The translations under genes were made by a program, and so were the position numbers. The notes below the pieces were generated by a model. The model worked only from the letters and a program-made list of their open reading frames with translations. It was not told the origin of the DNA and searched no databases. Shown piece after piece: positions 1,559 through 25,454 of a DNA stretch of 64,000 bases; positions within the stretch are counted from its first letter, which is position 1, and the number at the start of each line of letters is the position of its first letter. Origin of the DNA: Pyrococcus sp. ST04 (GTDB lineage Archaea; Methanobacteriota_B; Thermococci; Thermococcales; Thermococcaceae); the NCBI RefSeq assembly GCF_000263735.1, contig NC_017946.1, positions 1,529,348 to 1,593,347 on the forward strand, read 5' to 3'.

Positions 1559-2748
1559 ATGGCAACACCTCTAATCTCCCTAAGAATTTCTTCAACGGTA
1601 AGGGGAACACCTCCAATCTTGTTAACACCCTTTAGAAGAACATCGTCGTTGACGAATCTTTGAACCTCAAGTATCATCTGCCCAAGATTCATTTCAGGAA
1701 CAAGAATTGCTCTAACTTTCTTCCCTAATTCTCTCATTCTCTCACCTGGGAAAGGATGGACGGTCTTCGGAACAAAGAGACCTACTCTAATTCCCTCTTT
1801 TCTTGCCTTAAGAACGGCCCCAAGTGAGGGTCTTGCAGAAACTCCCCAACTTACAACCAAGATTTCTGCATCTTCAGTGTAATACTCTTCATATTTCTCG
1901 TAAACATCCCGATTTTTCTCTATTTTCCTATGAATTCTTCTTATCAGCCTGTCGTGGACTTCAGGAGTGTATACATCTCTAAGGCCATTTTCTTTATGGG
2001 TTGAGCCCGTTACATGAGTAAAGTAGCCATGCCCAAAAAGTGGCATTGGTGGGATTCCATCCCCGTGAGGATCACCAAAAGGAAGCTTAGCCTCCTCCTC
2101 ACTCTGAGGAAGCTTCCTATAGGCTATCTCAACCTCATCGGGGTCGGGAATTCTTATCTGCTCCCTTGTATGACCAAGGATGCCATCGAACAAAACAACA
2201 ACGGGAGTTCTAAGTTTCTCTGCGATGTTGAACGCTCTTATAGTTTCCCAGAATGCATCTTCCACACTCACTGGAGAAACAGCAATCATTGGATGGTCTC
2301 CATGAGTGCCCCACCTAGCCTGGAAGAAGTCTCCCTGGGCTCCTTTTGTAGCCTGTCCTGTTGATGGACCACTTCTTTGAACATCAACAAGAACCAAAGG
2401 AGTTTCAGTCATCACTGCATATCCAAGGTTTTCCTGCATTAGGCTAAATCCAGGACCTGAAGTTGCTGTCATTACCTTAAACCCTGTCCATGAAGCTCCT
2501 ATCATTGCAGCTATACTCGCTATTTCATCTTCCATCTGGAGATAATATCCTCCAACTTTAGGAAGCTCCCTTGCCATTGTTTCAGCAATCTCACTCGAAG
2601 GTGTTATTGGATAACCAGCGTAAAATCTGCAACCTGCAAAGATTGCTCCATAAGCTATTGCCTCATCTCCCATCATAAAGTAATTTCCTGGCTTATAAAG
2701 CTTCTTTAAGAGTTCTTTTTGTTCAGGTTCATCTCCTCGAATTATCAT
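1555..2748 (-). CDS. korA: 2-oxoacid (probably 2-oxoglutarate):ferredoxin oxidoreductase alpha subunit
   Basis: This alpha subunit (about 397 residues) carries the pyrimidine-binding domain and a transketolase C-like domain. Visible blocks are [65 protein letters not shown] and RSGPSTGQAT, all typical of KorA. I place the start at the ATG at 2748, because GGTGGTAAGG precedes it and korD ends next to it. A longer in-frame start exists at 2757. It is second in the korD-A-B-C operon. Function is secure at the family level and the 2-oxoglutarate specificity is by analogy. Confidence 0.94.
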   Translation of the reverse strand: MIIRGDEPEQKELLKKLYKPGNYFMMGDEAIAYGAIFAGCRFYAGYPITPSSEIAETMARELPKVGGYYLQMEDEIASIAAMIGASWTGFKVMTATSGPGFSLMQENLGYAVMTETPLVLVDVQRSGPSTGQATKGAQGDFFQARWGTHGDHPMIAVSPVSVEDAFWETIRAFNIAEKLRTPVVVLFDGILGHTREQIRIPDPDEVEIAYRKLPQSEEEAKLPFGDPHGDGIPPMPLFGHGYFTHVTGSTHKENGLRDVYTPEVHDRLIRRIHRKIEKNRDVYEKYEEYYTEDAEILVVSWGVSARPSLGAVLKARKEGIRVGLFVPKTVHPFPGERMRELGKKVRAILVPEMNLGQMILEVQRFVNDDVLLKGVNKIGGVPLTVEEILREIRGVAI

Positions 2749-2750
2749 CC

Positions 2751-3020
2751 TTACCACCTTACAGCAATTGCAAAGTCTGGACAGAGTAGTTCACAGAGCT
2801 TACATCTCACACATTTCTCTGCGTGCACAGGAATTGGGTAGTGAACTCCCTTCTCGCTAAGCTCTTTGCTCCACTCAAAGACTTTTCTTGGGCATAACTC
2901 TACGCATATTCCGCAACCTTTGCAGAGAAAAGTATCGACACTTATCTCAACATTTTTGGCCTTCCCTATGACAAGATATTCCTCTTTACTAACCTGTGTC
3001 TGGGTTTCGTCATTTGCCAT
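2751..3020 (-). CDS. korD: 2-oxoacid:ferredoxin oxidoreductase delta (ferredoxin-like) subunit
   Basis: This small protein with two [4Fe-4S] clusters passes electrons from the catalytic subunits to ferredoxin. Two cluster motifs are plain: CKGCGICVELCP and CVRCKLCELLCP. I choose the ATG at 3020 (89 residues), since GGTGGTC lies just before it. The longer frame to 3065 would start inside the promoter. It is the first gene of the leftward operon, and a TATA-like element lies at 3063-3072. Confidence 0.92.
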   Translation of the reverse strand: MANDETQTQVSKEEYLVIGKAKNVEISVDTFLCKGCGICVELCPRKVFEWSKELSEKGVHYPIPVHAEKCVRCKLCELLCPDFAIAVRW

Positions 3021-3062
3021 ATCGACCACCTGCAATCCCCTACTGACTTTACATTTGTAAAA

Positions 3063-3072
3063 CATTTAAATC
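3063..3072 (-). promoter_or_regulatory. TATA element of the korDABC operon
   Basis: On the minus strand the sequence reads GATTTAAATG, a good archaeal TATA box. It sits about 43-52 bases before the korD ATG at 3020. Transcription would start near 3040 with a short leader holding the GGTGGTC ribosome binding site. Confidence 0.55.
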
Positions 3073-3255
3073 TTTCGTGAGTGAACCGAATGTTTAAAAA
3101 ATAAAGTTCAGATGTTGCCATTTGGTTAAAAAACTTGGTTTTTTAGAAATATTTAGTTTAATTCTGGCAAGATGATTTTCTATATAACTTCAAAGTTAGT
3201 AAAAATTGGGTATATGTTCCCACGACATTTGGATTCATTTTTCTTAACTAAAATC

Positions 3256-3264
3256 CTTATATAG
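3256..3264 (+). promoter_or_regulatory. TATA element and RBS of ftsY
   Basis: CTTATATAG lies about 30-38 bases before the ftsY ATG at 3294. A strong ribosome binding site, GGGAGG at 3284-3289, lies between them. The preceding 150 bases are AT-rich and show no other gene or RNA that I can recognise. Confidence 0.6.
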
Positions 3265-3293
3265 CCTTCACAAATTCTTCGTAGGGAGGAAAA

Positions 3294-4262
3294 ATGTTTG
3301 GAAAATTAAAGGAAAAGCTCAAGTCATTTGTAAAGAAAGTCGAAGAAAACGTTGAAAAGGAAGAAAAAGAAGCCGAAAAGAAAGGCCTGCTCGATAAAAT
3401 ACTCATGGTAGAAATAAAAGAGAGGGATATTGATGAAGCACTGGATGAGCTTGAGCTCGAATTATTGGAAGCTGATGTCGCACTAGAAGTCGTTGATGCA
3501 TTGAGAGAAAAGATAAAGGAAAAACTTGTAGGGAAGAAAGTAAGAATCGGAACAGACAAGGAGAAAATAATTGAAGATGCCGTAAAAGAGGCTGTTTCAG
3601 AAATTCTTGAGACTTCTAAAAGGATAGACCTTCTCGAAGAAATTAAGAGATCTGAAAAGCCATACGTTATAATGTTTGTAGGCTTCAACGGCTCTGGAAA
3701 AACAACTACAATAGCAAAGCTTGCCCACTGGCTTAAGAAAAATGGACTAAGCGTTGTAATAGCTGCAAGCGATACATTTAGAGCTGGAGCAATAGAGCAA
3801 CTAGAAGAACATGCCAAGAGGATAGGAGTAAAAGTGATAAAGCACAAGTATGGTGCAGATCCAGCTGCTGTTGCTTACGATGCAATACAACATGCAAAGG
3901 CAAGAGGAATCGATGTCGTGCTCATAGACACAGCTGGAAGGAGCGAAACTAACAGGAACCTCATGGACGAAATGAAGAAGATTGCAAGAGTTACGAAGCC
4001 CAATCTCGTGATATTCGTGGGAGACGCATTAGCTGGAAACGCAATAGTCGAGCAGGCAAGACAATTCAACGAAGCTGTTAAAATAGACGGAGTAATACTT
4101 ACAAAGCTCGACGCAGATGCAAGAGGTGGTGCTGCTTTAAGTATAAGTCACGTAATAGATGCCCCGATACTCTTCGTTGGAGTTGGCCAAGGTTACGATG
4201 ACCTTATGCCATTTGACAAAACCTGGTTCCTAGAGAGAATTTTTGGTGATATGAATGATTAA
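3294..4262 (+). CDS. ftsY: Signal recognition particle receptor FtsY
   Basis: This is the membrane-associated GTPase that docks the SRP-ribosome complex at the translocon. The protein has 322 residues. Its N-terminal 45 residues are highly charged, rich in Lys and Glu, as in other archaeal FtsY. The helical N domain follows, then the G domain with [10 protein letters not shown] (P-loop), [16 protein letters not shown] and [10 protein letters not shown]. Length fits archaeal FtsY. It has its own TATA box and GGGAGG site and overlaps the downstream DUF167 gene by eight bases. Its partner SRP54 is encoded at 31007-32338. Confidence 0.97.
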
Positions 4263-12234: not shown

Positions 12235-12290
12235 GGGGATGATGAAGGAGATTTCGGCCGAGTGATGATGACACTCGCATGGGCTGACCC
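12235..12290 (+). ncRNA. C/D box guide sRNA (one guide matches the 5' region of 16S rRNA)
   Basis: This is a canonical archaeal C/D box sRNA: GGG stem side, C box ATGATGA (12239-12245), a 12-nt guide, D' box CCGA (12258-12261), a 3-nt spacer, C' box ATGATGA (12265-12271), a second 12-nt guide CACTCGCATGGG, D box CTGA (12284-12287), then CCC closing the stem. The D guide complements CCATGCGAGT, which I recall from the conserved 5' part of archaeal 16S rRNA. The rule of five then points to the U of CCAU (about U52 in E. coli numbering), a known archaeal sR1 target. I could not assign the D' guide. A TATA-like TTTTTAAC lies about 25 bases upstream. Confidence 0.85.
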
Positions 12291-12334
12291 AAGGAATATA
12301 AAGTTCCCAAGTTTCTAATTTCTAGACGGACATT

Positions 12335-12371
12335 CTTTTAAATTTGGAAGAACTATAATTATAATTGGGTG
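12335..12371 (+). promoter_or_regulatory. TATA element and RBS of the unknown two-gene operon
   Basis: CTTTTAAATTT at 12335-12345 is a plausible TATA box. GGGTG at 12367-12371 is the ribosome binding site for the ATG at 12379. The predicted leader is only about 10-15 nt. Confidence 0.5.
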
Positions 12372-12378
12372 TTATAAT

Positions 12379-13812
12379 ATGGAGACTAACAACAACGAAA
12401 ATAGAATAGATATCATAGAGTGGGCTAAGAATAAAAAGATATACAAAACAGAAAGCTGGAAAGAGTTTATCAATCAACTACTCGACTTTTTAAGTTACCT
12501 TTACTCATTTCGAGAATTCCAGAACTGGCTAAGAAAAACATTTCATGGAAAGAAAATAGGTCTTCTCCCCGAAGACCTAAAAGAACCGGCAAAACTCATA
12601 ATAGCTGGGGGAGGATATGAGGAAAATGCCTTTGGCAGGGTCATGTTTAAATTATTTGACGTAAAGACTGGAGACTTTTCAAATTATGAAACAAGCCTAG
12701 AGGTTTATCTAAAAAGAGGAGAATATACAACAATATTTGTTGGAAAGAACATTTTTGGCCAATCTAAAGAATTCTTTGAGAATCTGATTGCCAAAATAGA
12801 AAGCATACTTCGAGAATTTGAAATTAAAACATATAAGGAAAGAGTGTATAAAAAAATTTCAAATATTGATTATTACTCATGGATTAATCCAGAAGAACCT
12901 CAACTTCAAGAAGTTCTGACTAACTTCCTAAACCTATCATTAAGCTTGCTCGAGCCATCAAGTCCTTATGTTCAGTTCATTGTGTACTTTAACACATCAA
13001 CCCTCAGTCTTTTAAGAGAAGTATTAGACTGCAGTATAACTGATATAAGAGAATTAGTGGAATTGTTTAAACCAAAGATACTTACGGAAAGCTTAAACGA
13101 AGTAGAAAAAATTGACGAGGATTATGGAGGAGACTACATCCTCCTCTTTGAAGATTACGGATTGTCAAAAGAAATACTGGAAGTGTTTGGAGAAGAAGGT
13201 TACCTCCACCGTCTCTTGAAGGGAGTATTTTCAAAAGAAACTAATGTTGATAGAATGTTTGATGAACTCTGGAAAGAAAGGAAAAAAGCAGTTTTAGAAC
13301 TTGTAAAGAAAAGAATATGGAGGCCACACAATCTCCTTAAGGAGGCACTATTCTCTAAAGAACTTTGTGAGGACAACATTAACTCAGTTGTGTTTGTTAA
13401 ATCTACATCTAAATTATATCAAGATTTAACTGGTGTAGATATCCTAAGAACTAACGAGTATCCCTCCTTTGCTGTTTATGAAATTAAAAAGGCCAAGGAA
13501 TACGCCTATGAATACGCCCGTTCACCAGGTTATCTTTTCACAATAATAGATAATATCGCTGAAAAGCTTAGAAAATGGTTCCCGTCTTCTAAAACAGAAC
13601 TACCAGTTTCAATTCTACTTGAAGATGCATTTCCTCTGCTCTCCACAAAATATCTACAGAGCAAATTTCAAAAAAGTTCATGGGGTCATAGTAATACAAC
13701 TGTTGTGTTTAAGTATCTAGTTTTAAAACCAAGAAACTGCGAAGATCCTCCTAATCCAAGATCTTACTTAACCCTACTCAAGGAGTTGGAGAGTATAGGT
13801 GAAACTCTATGA
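12379..13812 (+). CDS. Unknown 477-residue protein, first gene of a two-gene module
   Basis: I do not recognise this protein. It is soluble-looking, acidic and rich in Lys, Glu, Leu and aromatic residues, with no signal peptide or membrane segment. Visible landmarks are LIIAGGGYEENAFGRVMFKL (near residue 70), a central helical stretch with repeated leucines, GGDYILLFEDYG near residue 250, and a more mixed alpha/beta C-terminal third. I see no P-loop or metal-binding motif. The stop overlaps the start of the next gene by four bases (ATGA), so the two are translationally coupled. Codons look more AT-rich than in the neighbouring housekeeping genes. A defence-type or accessory role is speculation. 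Confidence 0.8.
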   Translation: METNNNENRIDIIEWAKNKKIYKTESWKEFINQLLDFLSYLYSFREFQNWLRKTFHGKKIGLLPEDLKEPAKLIIAGGGYEENAFGRVMFKLFDVKTGDFSNYETSLEVYLKRGEYTTIFVGKNIFGQSKEFFENLIAKIESILREFEIKTYKERVYKKISNIDYYSWINPEEPQLQEVLTNFLNLSLSLLEPSSPYVQFIVYFNTSTLSLLREVLDCSITDIRELVELFKPKILTESLNEVEKIDEDYGGDYILLFEDYGLSKEILEVFGEEGYLHRLLKGVFSKETNVDRMFDELWKERKKAVLELVKKRIWRPHNLLKEALFSKELCEDNINSVVFVKSTSKLYQDLTGVDILRTNEYPSFAVYEIKKAKEYAYEYARSPGYLFTIIDNIAEKLRKWFPSSKTELPVSILLEDAFPLLSTKYLQSKFQKSSWGHSNTTVVFKYLVLKPRNCEDPPNPRSYLTLLKELESIGETL

Positions 13813-16100
13813 AGAAGCAACTAAAAGGCATCGAGAAAACAACAAAAGAGGCAATACTCCAAATAATGTATTCCTCTTTTAAAGAAGAAACAGAACCAAA
13901 TCAAAAAACTCAGGTAAAAGAGGAAGCCCAAAACCTTTCACTCAACAAAGTGTCAATACCTCCAATCTATATAAATGCCAGGTTATTGAATGTTAATATT
14001 AGTATACCAACTCACATACCCTTTACCATTCTTCCTCCACTTCCACAATCCAAGCTCATCAAGAGAATAACATCTCTCAGATTTAAGAAAGAAATTCCAA
14101 ATATCTCTCTCCCTCTCTCCAAACTAAGACCTATGAAGATCGCCTACAAGAGGGTTTCACTAAATTCAAAAGTACCAGATAAAAAAAGATGTCCATTACC
14201 CAGATTAAACGTCAAAAGGAGAACACTTACCAAAACAAGGGAGGTTAGAACAATAAACAAAGTTATCCGAGTGAGTTCTCATGAGTTTGGAATGTTAAAC
14301 CCTCCTAAGGTTTCAAAAATACAGAGCTCTAAGATCTCAATTAACATTAATATCCATGCTCAAGAGGATACTCACTTTCCAAGATCTCTTATTTTCCCAA
14401 AAATTAAGATCCCGCTTATAAAAGCAATAACTTTTTTTGAGATAACTAAAACACTCCCATATTCACAGCAGAAGCTCTCAAAAGTGTCATCCTTAGCTCT
14501 GCCAAGAATTTTTGTTACGCCACTATCATCGCAAGGAACCATTATTTTGAGAATTTCAAAACTCTCCTTGCTACCCACCCTCAATAGTTTATTCCCTCAA
14601 ATTACTCCCATAGACGCCTCTACTTTATCGATAGGGATTTTAAAAATTAATAGTTCCATACTGCGTGGAAACGATGGTTTCCCCTTTCCAAGTCTTACTA
14701 TAAAAAGGATGCCCATAATATCAGACTTCAATATCTTAAAAGAAATTCTATATGCAAAGTCTATAGGCATATACCCTAAGGTAGCCCTTAAATCATGGAA
14801 ATATTTGCCAGTTCTCCAATTCTCAAGCAATGTCGCTGAGTTATTGGATATTGGAGGTTTTATAGTAGAGGAGGCGAAAAAAATGAAAGAGAAAGCTCTC
14901 TTAGAGGAACTCTTTAGAGTCAAAGAAGGGGCGTTTCCAAAAGGTGCCAGCGAAGTACTAGAGAAACCAATTCTAATTTTGATGTTTGACAAATATGAAA
15001 ACGAGCTCCACATTCCTCTTGCATATGTCTGTGCAGAGTTATATAAGGAAATAAAGGGAGGAGAGACACCAATTCCTGCCTATAGAGATTTCGATAAACC
15101 AGAACAAGTTGATTCTACTCAAGATGTTAGCCTATTATTTCCATTTAAGTTCACAAAAAGAGTAGAGATTATAGATGGAAGAATAGCTGAACATGTGTCT
15201 ATTCAAATGTTCCTACGAACCGTAAGAGGAAGGATAAAAACAGCATATCTACAAGGACTAGGTTTCCTAATTATTAACTTCGGCGACCCTCGGAGATTGA
15301 AAGATAGGTATTTTTCAAGTACCTTACAAGAGATTAAAAATGAAAGTAAGGGAGCACATATCATTAAAATAATCAACAATATTAATGATCCTATATTAAA
15401 AAAGGCCATAATATATGGAGTTCTCGGTATTAAAAATCCATCAGATCTAGATTTTAAGTCAATGTTGGAGAAATATCATAAATCACTAAGGGACACAGTC
15501 AAAGTATTATCAATATTTGTTCCAATGGGAGAGAGTGTAAATGGAAGGCATCAGTTTAGAGAGACTCTCCATTATCCCATGAAAGTTGCAACATTTTCCT
15601 ATTTTGTGAACAGGGAGTTGGAAAAACTTGAAAAAAAGCCACTCTCAGAAGATGAATTTTATCAATTTATAGCGGGACTGCTCAGAAATGGAACAATAAA
15701 AATTGAAACCCCTATCAAAGAAGGGATAATTCCAGATATGGTATATGAGGGAGATAATAGGGTAATTATCGAGATAGAAACCCTCATAGGAACAGGAGAT
15801 CCTCTCAAGAAAATTGACAAAACTGTATCAAAGTACTTAAGTGATGAGGGGAGATATTTGTTCCCAGATTATGAGTTCTGGATAATTCTAAGACCAGTGT
15901 CAGCACTCATTCATTATGAAGAAATATTCAGAAGGGCTAAAATTTACAATACCATATACGAGGAACTTAATCCAAGCTTTAAAGTTTTAACACTCGAGTT
16001 TGATAAGAAAAACCGACTTAAATGGCATTTAGTCGATATAGAAGACTTCGGAAAAGAAATTAAGAAGGCTCTAAATAGAATAAAAGAAATTGAAACATAA
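13809..16100 (+). CDS. Unknown 763-residue protein with candidate C-terminal PD-(D/E)XK-like nuclease domain
   Basis: This protein is not recognised as a whole. Residues about 45-335 are strikingly basic and rich in Ile, Pro, Ser and Lys with few acidic residues, and look like an extended or beta-rich segment. Residues about 340-570 appear globular. Residues about 580-735 look like a restriction-endonuclease fold: a helix near Glu585, then IIPDMVYEGD (Asp643), VIIEIET (Glu655, Glu657), a KKIDKTVSKYL helix and the strand FWIILRP. The core reads PD-(x)11-E-x-E, with Glu where Lys is usual; BamHI is a known ExE case. It is coupled to the preceding gene through ATGA. Nuclease activity is an inference. 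Confidence 0.75.
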   Translation: MKKQLKGIEKTTKEAILQIMYSSFKEETEPNQKTQVKEEAQNLSLNKVSIPPIYINARLLNVNISIPTHIPFTILPPLPQSKLIKRITSLRFKKEIPNISLPLSKLRPMKIAYKRVSLNSKVPDKKRCPLPRLNVKRRTLTKTREVRTINKVIRVSSHEFGMLNPPKVSKIQSSKISININIHAQEDTHFPRSLIFPKIKIPLIKAITFFEITKTLPYSQQKLSKVSSLALPRIFVTPLSSQGTIILRISKLSLLPTLNSLFPQITPIDASTLSIGILKINSSILRGNDGFPFPSLTIKRMPIISDFNILKEILYAKSIGIYPKVALKSWKYLPVLQFSSNVAELLDIGGFIVEEAKKMKEKALLEELFRVKEGAFPKGASEVLEKPILILMFDKYENELHIPLAYVCAELYKEIKGGETPIPAYRDFDKPEQVDSTQDVSLLFPFKFTKRVEIIDGRIAEHVSIQMFLRTVRGRIKTAYLQGLGFLIINFGDPRRLKDRYFSSTLQEIKNESKGAHIIKIINNINDPILKKAIIYGVLGIKNPSDLDFKSMLEKYHKSLRDTVKVLSIFVPMGESVNGRHQFRETLHYPMKVATFSYFVNRELEKLEKKPLSEDEFYQFIAGLLRNGTIKIETPIKEGIIPDMVYEGDNRVIIEIETLIGTGDPLKKIDKTVSKYLSDEGRYLFPDYEFWIILRPVSALIHYEEIFRRAKIYNTIYEELNPSFKVLTLEFDKKNRLKWHLVDIEDFGKEIKKALNRIKEIET

Positions 16101-16156
16101 CCACCATTGCCCCATGAACTTTAAAAGTTAAGCATTCTCTTTTCATCCGAACAACC

Positions 16157-17131
16157 ATGAAGTGCTCAAAGTGTGGAAGAGAAGCAGTATACTTTGCAAG
16201 ATATGAAGGGAGGTATTATTGTCACAAACACTTTAACGAGCTAGTGGAGGGTAAGGTCAAGAGAACTATTAGAAAGTACAGAATGATAAGAAGAGGAGAA
16301 AGAATCGGCGTGGCTGTCAGCGGAGGAAAAGACAGCGTTGTCCTAATGCACCTGCTCGCAAAGCTAAGAAAAAAATTCCCCTTCGAGCTAGTCGCGATAA
16401 CGATAGACGAGGGAATAAAAGGGTACAGAGACAAAAGTGTCGAAGTTGCGAAGAAAAATGCAGAGCTCCTTGGAATAGAGCATCACATATACAGGTTTAA
16501 GGATTACATAGGCTTTACTCTAGATGAAACCGTTGAGATAATGGGGCCAAGAGGAGAGAGAGTTGGTGCATGTTCCTACTGTGGAGTTTGGAGAAGGTGG
16601 CTCCTTAACAAGGCCGCAGAAGAGCTCAAAGTAGATAAACTTGCTCTAGGTCTAAATCTAGATGATGAAGTCCAAGTATTTCTAATGAACTTGATGAGAG
16701 GAGATATAGCCAGGCTAGGGAGAACTGGCCCTTATTATGAAGTTATCCATGAAGGGCTTATCCCAAGGATAAAACCCCTAAGAGAGGTCCCCGAAAAGGA
16801 GATAGTCTTGTACGCCGTTCTGAATAACATTGAGGTAGATTTAAGTGAGTGCCCCTACGCCGTTGAGGCATTCAGAGCCGAGATAAGGGACTGGCTTAAC
16901 GAGATGGAAGAGAAGCACCCTGGAACCAAGTACCAACTCCTAAGGAGCTATGATAAATTGTTCCCCTTACTTGCGAAAACCTACGCCAAGGAGGTAAAGC
17001 TAAACCGTTGTAAAATATGTGGCCAACCAACAAGTGGAGAGATCTGCAAAGCCTGCATGTTCAGGCTTCAAGTTCAGCAAAAAGCCAAGGAGAGGGGGTT
17101 TAACTTTAAACTAACTGCGGCAAAGGATTGA
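16157..17131 (+). CDS. tRNA 2-thiolation protein, TtuA/Ncs6 (NcsA) family
   Basis: This 324-residue ATP-dependent tRNA thiolase of the TtuA/Ncs6 group makes a 2-thiouridine-type base using a sulfur-carrier protein. Zinc fingers bracket the protein: CSKCGREA with CHKHF at the N terminus, and CKICGQPTSGEICKACMF at the C terminus. The PP-loop SGGKDSVVLMHLL lies near residue 55. GACSYCGVWRR and a later cysteine (SECPYAVEAFR) give the three cysteines that hold the catalytic Fe-S cluster in this family. The P. horikoshii relative has been studied structurally. Whether it acts at U54 or U34 cannot be settled here. Confidence 0.93.
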   Translation: MKCSKCGREAVYFARYEGRYYCHKHFNELVEGKVKRTIRKYRMIRRGERIGVAVSGGKDSVVLMHLLAKLRKKFPFELVAITIDEGIKGYRDKSVEVAKKNAELLGIEHHIYRFKDYIGFTLDETVEIMGPRGERVGACSYCGVWRRWLLNKAAEELKVDKLALGLNLDDEVQVFLMNLMRGDIARLGRTGPYYEVIHEGLIPRIKPLREVPEKEIVLYAVLNNIEVDLSECPYAVEAFRAEIRDWLNEMEEKHPGTKYQLLRSYDKLFPLLAKTYAKEVKLNRCKICGQPTSGEICKACMFRLQVQQKAKERGFNFKLTAAKD

Positions 17132-24104: not shown

Positions 24105-24240
24105 GACCTCCTCCCCGCCCTGAAGGGCGAGGGTTCCAGCGAGTTAACCCCTCGCTATGGGTGGGGAGGTTTGAGGGGCTTCATTAAAGCTCAACTCAAA
24201 GCGAGCTTTCAGCCCCTCCGGCCGGGTCTCCGGCCAATTA
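24105..24240 (-). ncRNA. Predicted omega-RNA (guide RNA) region at the TnpB element right end
   Basis: In TnpB systems the 3' end of tnpB and the following right end are processed into a guide RNA, and the flanking bases serve as guide. Here the segment after the tnpB stop holds a perfect hairpin CGCCC-TGAA-GGGCG (24116-24129 on the plus strand) in a GC-rich run that stands out from the AT-rich surroundings. The 5' boundary inside tnpB is a guess. The guide would begin GTGCTACCGAGGCTAA, that is, cbiZ sequence. Confidence 0.5.
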
Positions 24241-25454
24241 CCCCTACCTGCCGTTAAACCCGGCAGGCTCGGGGTTATCGTCCTCACAACCTTCTTCAAA
24301 ATGTTAAAAGCACCAACTAAATCAGCATTCATTACAACGCCCTCCCCGTGGCACTTAAACAAACCCCTAAAGATTCTCCCATTCGAGTGGCGTTGGCCAC
24401 AGAGAGGGCAGGTTTGTGAAGTGAAAGCCTCATCCACTAAGACAACTTGAATACCATACTCCTCAGCCACTTCCTTCAAGCGTTTAATAACATAGTTAAA
24501 ACGCCAAACGTGGGAGAGGAGGAAATTCTGTTTTTCACCCCTTTCAGAGTTTCTACTGATGCCCTTGGGGTATCCGATGACAATCTTCGAAACCCCGAGC
24601 TCGTAGAGCCTCTTAACAGTCTGTCTCACCACAGTATTGATGTAATGTTTGGCTTGGAGTTTCGCCTTCTCGTGCATTTTCCTTAGCTTCCTACTTGTTT
24701 TAGTCCCAGACTTGTTTAGTTTTGACTGGTAATCGGCAACCCTCTTCCGCCAGTAAAAAGCTATTGCCTTCAGAGGGCGACCATTCACGAGGAAGCTTTC
24801 CCCATTCTCTACATAAACAGCCATCAGATTGTTTATTCCTAAATCAATTCCAGCCGTGAGGTTTCCCTTTGGCTTCCTCGGAAGTTTAATCCACTCCTCG
24901 CCCTCGAGTTTTTCCTCAACGGTGAAACTAACGTGAGCATACCATTTGCGTTTAACTTCGTCATACTGGATTTCCAAGCGCCCCTGCTTGCCCTTAAAGT
25001 GAACCCTCCCCTTGAACTGGATTCTCAACCTCCCGAATTTACCGAGTCTTCTCAGCTCCAGAACGTTCCCCTCAATCCGATACTGGTCATTCCTGAGGGG
25101 AATAATGAATAACTTTCCACCGTTTTCTCCCTTGATGAATTTTGGAGGGTTAAGCTTGAACCACTCAGGCAATTCCCCAGACTTTTTCTTCCTATTGAGT
25201 GAGAAGAATGAACGCCAAGCCTCCGCATTCTTCCTCGCCAACTGCTGGACTATTGAGCCACCAACCCAGTCCTTAAAGGCGTGGTACGCCTCCTTTTCTG
25301 TGGTGGCAAAGTCTATCACGCCGAACTCCTTGAACTGTTTTAACCTCTCATAATTAAGCTTATTCCAGATTACTGCTGATGCTTGAGCTAATTCGAGTAG
25401 GATTCTTTCCTGCTCTTTTGAGGGCTGGAGTTTTACCGTTACTGTCCGCTTCAT
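24144..25454 (-). CDS. tnpB: RNA-guided endonuclease TnpB
   Basis: This 436-residue TnpB of the IS200/IS605 group is the ancestor-type relative of Cas12. The RuvC-like triad appears intact: Asp204 in AGIDLGINNL, Glu342 in VLVDEAFTSQ and Asp378 in NADLVGAFNI. The zinc ribbon starts with CPLCG (Cys349, Cys352), but the second half reads FKCHGEGV, so only Cys368 remains of the usual C-x-x-C. An N-terminal basic domain (VTVKLQPSKEQERILLEL) and the RGLFKCHGEG linker are typical. The tail after residue 395 is Pro/Gly-rich. The ATG follows GGGAGGAGAA. There are no frameshifts, so it may still be active. Confidence 0.95.
   Translation of the reverse strand: MKRTVTVKLQPSKEQERILLELAQASAVIWNKLNYERLKQFKEFGVIDFATTEKEAYHAFKDWVGGSIVQQLARKNAEAWRSFFSLNRKKKSGELPEWFKLNPPKFIKGENGGKLFIIPLRNDQYRIEGNVLELRRLGKFGRLRIQFKGRVHFKGKQGRLEIQYDEVKRKWYAHVSFTVEEKLEGEEWIKLPRKPKGNLTAGIDLGINNLMAVYVENGESFLVNGRPLKAIAFYWRKRVADYQSKLNKSGTKTSRKLRKMHEKAKLQAKHYINTVVRQTVKRLYELGVSKIVIGYPKGISRNSERGEKQNFLLSHVWRFNYVIKRLKEVAEEYGIQVVLVDEAFTSQTCPLCGQRHSNGRIFRGLFKCHGEGVVMNADLVGAFNILKKVVRTITPSLPGLTAGRGNWPETRPEGLKARFELSFNEAPQTSPPIARG

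Follow-up and report, generated by a model that had tools for sequence, protein, structure and literature searches.

Nucleases of the PD-(D/E)XK type share a core topology, an invariant Asp, an acidic pair and a Lys that can migrate, and their E-x-E variants include active enzymes such as BamHI. In the type IV restriction systems McrBC and CoCoNuT, coupled genes with a patchy and mobile distribution combine an AAA+-type domain with a PD-(D/E)XK nuclease. Here we describe a pair of coupled genes, A and B, found in a 64,000-nt stretch of Pyrococcus sp. ST04 DNA (the window), in which both likenesses recur. Unlike the named PD-(D/E)XK families, B joins its predicted nuclease domain to a repeat tail and an AAA+-like domain in one protein and is nearly always paired with A; unlike in McrBC and CoCoNuT, the AAA+-like domain is P-loop-free and resides in the nuclease subunit, and A is, by sequence, not a nucleoside triphosphatase (NTPase). 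We interpret A-B as a mobile two-subunit archaeal nuclease module, most likely directed against viruses or plasmids, and hold this interpretation with slightly better than even confidence.

Little is known of archaeal immunity beyond clustered regularly interspaced short palindromic repeats (CRISPR) and restriction (PMC12988326). Another two-gene nuclease module is Hachiman (HamAB), whose second subunit controls the nuclease (PMC12278908). A-B resembles it in this plan; unlike Hachiman, it has no helicase, and A matches no family or fold searched. A further point of comparison is ACC, an archaea-only proteasome homologue with a coiled coil (Fuchs et al., 2021; PMC8665760). The proteasome-like peptidase gene c5, found beside some A-B pairs, likewise encodes a diverged proteasome homologue of archaea, whose C-terminal helix is charged; it occurs in several archaeal phyla and may be ACC. 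However, no informative genomic context was reported for ACC (PMC8665760), whereas c5 sits with A-B.

The A-B genes and the predicted nuclease

The C-terminal domain of B very probably adopts the PD-(D/E)XK fold, as judged from an AlphaFold2 model built with 30 sequences and from a motif census of 55 archaeal B homologues. The modelled domain has the alpha-beta-beta-beta-alpha-beta core topology at a predicted local distance difference test (pLDDT) of mostly 85-97, with helices at residues 579-626, 665-674 and 703-716 and strands at 630-632, 644-646, 652-657, 689-694 and 723-731. The original prediction, an earlier reading of the window from its letters and open reading frames (ORFs), had suggested such a fold from D643, E655, E657 and a Lys-rich helix; these elements are as it described them and are conserved in the homologues (Table 1), the nuclease core is present in the model, and neither protein matches a housekeeping family. 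In addition, E633 is present in 52 of the 55 homologues. All seven D-x-K homologues carry Glu at the K668 position, and Glu occurs there in exactly these seven. Since they form one clade in the B tree, a single exchange event accounts for them. The exchange between E-x-E...K and D-x-K...E keeps the charge set, which implies selection on the active site, and on the sequences compared it is the lysine migration known from PD-(D/E)XK enzymes. Sequences and model thus strongly support the predicted fold, its active-site geometry and the disordered tail of B described below.

The window motif, E-x-E, differs from the textbook (D/E)-x-K, and the domain might accordingly be an inactive module used for binding only. 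We consider this very improbable, because a Lys is kept in the next helix, the sister clade combines D-x-K with a change of the helix Lys to Glu, and BamHI is active with the same E-x-E motif. B is likely to be a catalytically active nuclease.

Upstream of the nuclease domain, the repeats of the tail begin with hydrophobic-Pro-x-hydrophobic-x-hydrophobic. This signature was found 10 times in the window B as compared to 2.4 times in shuffled sequences, and 150 times against 55 in the family, counts that are descriptive, as the motif was picked after viewing the sequences. In G118, the repeat spacing is exactly 32-32-32. Beyond residue 340, two domains are modelled with mostly good confidence. 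Foldseek matches of the first (residues 343-570) are led by ORC, CbbX, and p97, with E-values from 4e-4 to 1e-3 and low template modelling scores. All 55 homologues lack a Walker A or GK[ST] loop where one would be expected, so ATP hydrolysis is not expected of this domain. No nuclease was found among the 50 Foldseek matches listed for B, which are dominated by the AAA+-like domain.

Gene A yielded a confident model (mean pLDDT 87, predicted template modelling score 0.87) that is mainly helical with a C-terminal beta hairpin. A fold search of the PDB and viral-model libraries with it gave no match at E 0.001. A probably regulates or guides B.

At the level of the locus, both ORFs and their ATGA overlap were confirmed. 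The pair had also been assigned its own TATA box, housekeeping flanks and an AT-rich composition, and all three claims hold: the TATA-like TTTTAAATTT starts 43 nt upstream of the first ATG of A, and the neighbours are a K+-channel-like gene pair on the opposite strand and a gene for a TtuA-type tRNA thiolase (names assigned by eye). The GC content of the insert is 34.7% vs 42.2% in the rest of the window; of 602 sliding 3.8-kb windows, just 1 is as low, and at this length no other part of the stretch is richer in AT. As anticipated, no known family was recognised for either product: searches of Pfam, NCBIfam, PADLOC (PADLOC-DB 2.0) and PDB sequences with A and B gave no significant match, and Pfam scans across all family members found nothing above threshold. 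The original prediction did not include the tail repeats of B, the empty sites, the C/D-box small RNA (sRNA) at 12235-12289, or the wide extent of the family in archaea and its proteasome-like partner.

Table 1. Coordinates of the A-B module, its signals and its insertion site in the window
Feature	Position	Strand	Details and basis
Gene A	12379..13812	+	477 aa, partner protein; alpha-rich confident model
Gene B	13809..16100	+	763 aa, predicted nuclease subunit
PD-(D/E)XK nuclease domain (predicted), B residues 579-763	15543..16097	+	model topology and motif census
K592, first helix of the nuclease domain	15582..15584	+	invariant, 55/55
D643, motif Asp	15735..15737	+	54/54 aligned
E655-x-E657, (D/E)-x-K position	15771..15779	+	ExE in 47, DxK in 7
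K668, migrated catalytic Lys (predicted), helix after the motif	15810..15812	+	K in 43, R in 3
AAA+/P-loop-like alpha/beta domain without Walker A, B residues 343-570	14835..15518	+	Foldseek and motif census
Disordered tail, basic and Pro-rich, imperfect repeats of ~30 residues, B residues 1-340	13809..14828	+	pLDDT ~30 over most of it
Inserted segment with A and B	12290..16116	+	blastn vs orthologous sites of six other Pyrococcus genomes
C/D-box sRNA (sR28-like)	12235..12289	+	left border of the insertion; belongs to the site, not the module
Putative TATA-box-like TTTTAAATTT of the A-B operon	12336..12345	+	sequence; position fits archaeal promoters
GGTGA ribosome-binding site of B, inside the 3' end of A	13798..13802	+	sequence

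Insertion site and mobility

An accessory location had been proposed for the pair, and empty sites in sister species bear this out. In six other genomes, presumably Pyrococcus to judge in part from a Pyrococcus sRNA match, the channel gene, the sRNA and ttuA lie together without A-B, as seen from blastn comparison of the orthologous sites. Flanking identity ends with the final base of the sRNA (12289) and restarts at 16117-16157. A housekeeping function of A-B was dropped in view of these empty sites. The 55-nt sRNA is kept at all Pyrococcus sites compared, where it precedes ttuA; it matches Rfam sR28 at 34.0 bits (E 1.7e-7), under the gathering score of 39.

The same gap has received other genes. 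In G006, it holds an A-B pair and a DUF234 ATPase, both upstream of the sRNA; G003 has the DUF234 ATPase at this position without A-B. As the window and G006 insertions lie on opposite sides of the sRNA, they are best read as independent. The DUF234-type gene fills the gap in both genomes (L012, 6320-7693; L174, reverse complement 2140-3513; L175), and G004 seems to retain just the two ends of this gene; different accessory genes are thus gained and lost at the gap. The sRNA marks a small insertion hotspot.

Other loci point to transfer as well. At 45 of 48 loci, A-B exceeds the DNA around it in AT content, with a median difference of 5.3 points. The B tree, a quick tree containing long branches, is discordant with the species: monophyly of Pyrococcus B is rejected at p-AU (approximately unbiased test) 2e-34, and that of Thermococcaceae at 3e-6. 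A near-identical pair is shared by an Archaeoglobales metagenome-assembled genome and G268, where a misbinned contig is possible. Several genomes carry two or three copies, and decayed copies are common (G004, G047, G123, G003, G268). Taken together, the sequence comparisons strongly support mobility, and A-B is very likely to spread horizontally.

Independent insertions beside the same sRNA would also be expected if A-B were a cargo or control part of an unrecognised mobile element and not a host defence. However, no integrase adjoins the pair, the insert ends show no target-site duplication or terminal repeats (only 6-nt chance repeats), and no copy was found in the viral, phage or plasmid sets, and we regard such an origin as highly unlikely.

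Among side observations, B nuclease-domain remnants of 145 and ~100 aa without A (L015, 9968-10405; L034) adjoin a phosphomannomutase-like gene, where G003 has a full c5-c4-A-B operon. A TnpB-like (OrfB) gene, identified by eye, lies on the minus strand of the window at 24144-25454, ~8 kb from A-B; a homologue, also assigned by eye, is found ~1 kb upstream of A-B in G007 (L084, 5241-6383).

Archaeal distribution and genomic partners

Searches with B and A returned a few close relatives first, and profiles then reached divergent homologues. Profile searches placed the family in 33 of 396 relatives; in a second phylum, presumably Thermoproteota, 30 of 349 genomes have it, and in a third group 5 of 36. 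It thus spans several archaeal phyla in a patchy manner: ~8-9% of the genomes are positive in both large samples, and most relatives lack A-B. Copies are probably present in the genetically tractable Thermococcus kodakarensis and Sulfolobus acidocaldarius.

The genomic search for the pair elsewhere found a homologue of A directly upstream of B on the same strand at 49 of 55 archaeal loci, mostly overlapping or at most 20 nt apart. A-B is therefore a conserved unit, coupled and paired. Among the remaining B loci, some are at contig ends and some have a divergent upstream gene. One B subfamily without A, in a single second-phylum family, lies near a tRNA thiolase-like gene (L136, L137, L096). 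In G513 (L156, 2944-7960), two tandem A-like genes are followed by B and a proteasome-like gene. A helix-turn-helix-type gene, assigned by eye, is found near A-B in four second-phylum genomes (L124, L127, L132, L134); once, such a gene lies directly upstream on the same strand and is a possible regulator.

The occurrence of A-B mainly in thermophilic archaeal groups, and the resemblance of an AAA+-like domain with a nuclease to repair complexes, would fit an accessory nuclease for repair or genome maintenance in hyperthermophiles. Repair genes are normally inherited vertically, whereas A-B is missing from most relatives, leaves clean empty sites, is strongly horizontally transferred and decays repeatedly, which makes this role rather improbable.

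One partner of A-B is c5. The gene order c5, c4, A, B occurs in five Thermococcaceae genomes, and a third copy in G006 has c5, A, B; overall, among 298 relatives c5 was detected in six, each time adjoining A-B. Within the second phylum, c5 adjoins A-B in two genomes (G577 and G513) and a divergent B in a third (G485), but it is not beside A-B in G576 and is apart from it in G426. In G298, too, c5 is next to B, on the opposite strand. Both c5 members scanned pass the gathering score of PF00227 (28.6 and 23.2 bits vs 22.4). A c5 profile search of the PDB yielded no proteasome at E<=1e-3, the only proteasome match being non-significant. T2 (after the start Met), D25 and K39 are invariant in seven homologues and, judged by eye, may correspond to the catalytic Thr, Asp17 and Lys33. 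The c4 gene between c5 and A (~305 aa; L043, 11980-12894; L042, L044, L045, L046) has no family match. At two loci (L036, L085), a CDC48-like ATPase gene follows B. In G641, the gene after a proteasome-like gene at a contig edge is a different one of 413 aa that looks nuclease-like by eye (L157, 657-1898).

A-B might also be a selfish toxin-antitoxin pair, in which B would be a toxic nuclease and A its antitoxin, the pair would persist by addiction, and the proteasome-like peptidase would remove A. The overlapping gene order with the antitoxin first is typical, and A-B is patchy, mobile and AT-rich, with frequent broken copies. Judged as a type II system, A-B is coupled but atypical in protein size: both proteins are large, and B, with its AAA+-like domain and repeat tail, is unlike the small toxins. 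Moreover, G004 retains a stand-alone nuclease-domain remnant of B without A. We hence think addiction unlikely, with the reservation that many defence systems are toxin-antitoxin-like and the two explanations overlap.

Proposed function in defence

Some A-B loci have neighbours known from defence. Type I restriction, AbiEii and Argonaute-like hits were found near some of them, and an HmaC/DUF499-like ATPase near A-B in G002; the Hma/DUF499 defence ATPases are represented at this one locus only and are not part of the module. In G031, Cas2- and Cas4-like genes and a stretch resembling a CRISPR array, all recognised by eye, lie ~6-9 kb from A-B (L014, 16900-19500).

A defence role of A-B, which the original prediction offered as an inference and which still is one, appears to us a little more probable than not. 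In the mechanism that we propose, the PD-(D/E)XK domain of B would cut nucleic acid (DNA or RNA) in a metal-dependent manner. The AAA+-like domain and the repeat tail would serve assembly, probably holding A and/or nucleic acid, and A, being translated first and coupled, would keep B off or direct it. In a subset of systems the proteasome-like peptidase, elsewhere the CDC48-like unfoldase, could plausibly switch the complex by proteolysis, an idea that for the c5-bearing loci we put forward tentatively. Slightly more doubtful still is a complete scheme of proteasome-coupled defence, in which the tail would scaffold several A subunits and, upon infection, the peptidase or unfoldase would remove A or the tail, so that the freed nuclease would destroy nucleic acid.

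Several observations weigh against the defence interpretation. No A-B homologues were found in the collections of viral contigs, phages and plasmids searched, and no peptidase or ATPase gene adjoins the window's own A-B. No profile match of the B domain to a named nuclease family was above threshold; the sub-threshold hits (CoiA_nuc, L_protein_N, CdiA_C, CDI nuclease) include several of the superfamily and give it weak support. PADLOC families numbered 86 in 143 near genes, 56 in 104 genes farther away and 53 in 132 control genes, a comparison by family tallies only that does not discriminate, because a CRISPR cluster happened to fall within the control. Given this missing contrast, the defence neighbours are not counted as proof.

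If the proteasome-coupled scheme is true, such a nuclease would add a type of immunity that has not yet been described, and an archaeal proteasome homologue would for the first time have a genomic context. More broadly, the analysis yields an unnamed family of two-gene predicted nucleases that is widespread in archaea and has an unexpected link to the proteasome. Roughly one in ten of the archaeal genomes sampled carries A-B, which crosses phyla and is nameless in the family libraries searched. It offers a testable predicted nuclease and a partner for which no fold relative was found, and it places a proteasome homologue in a genomic context.

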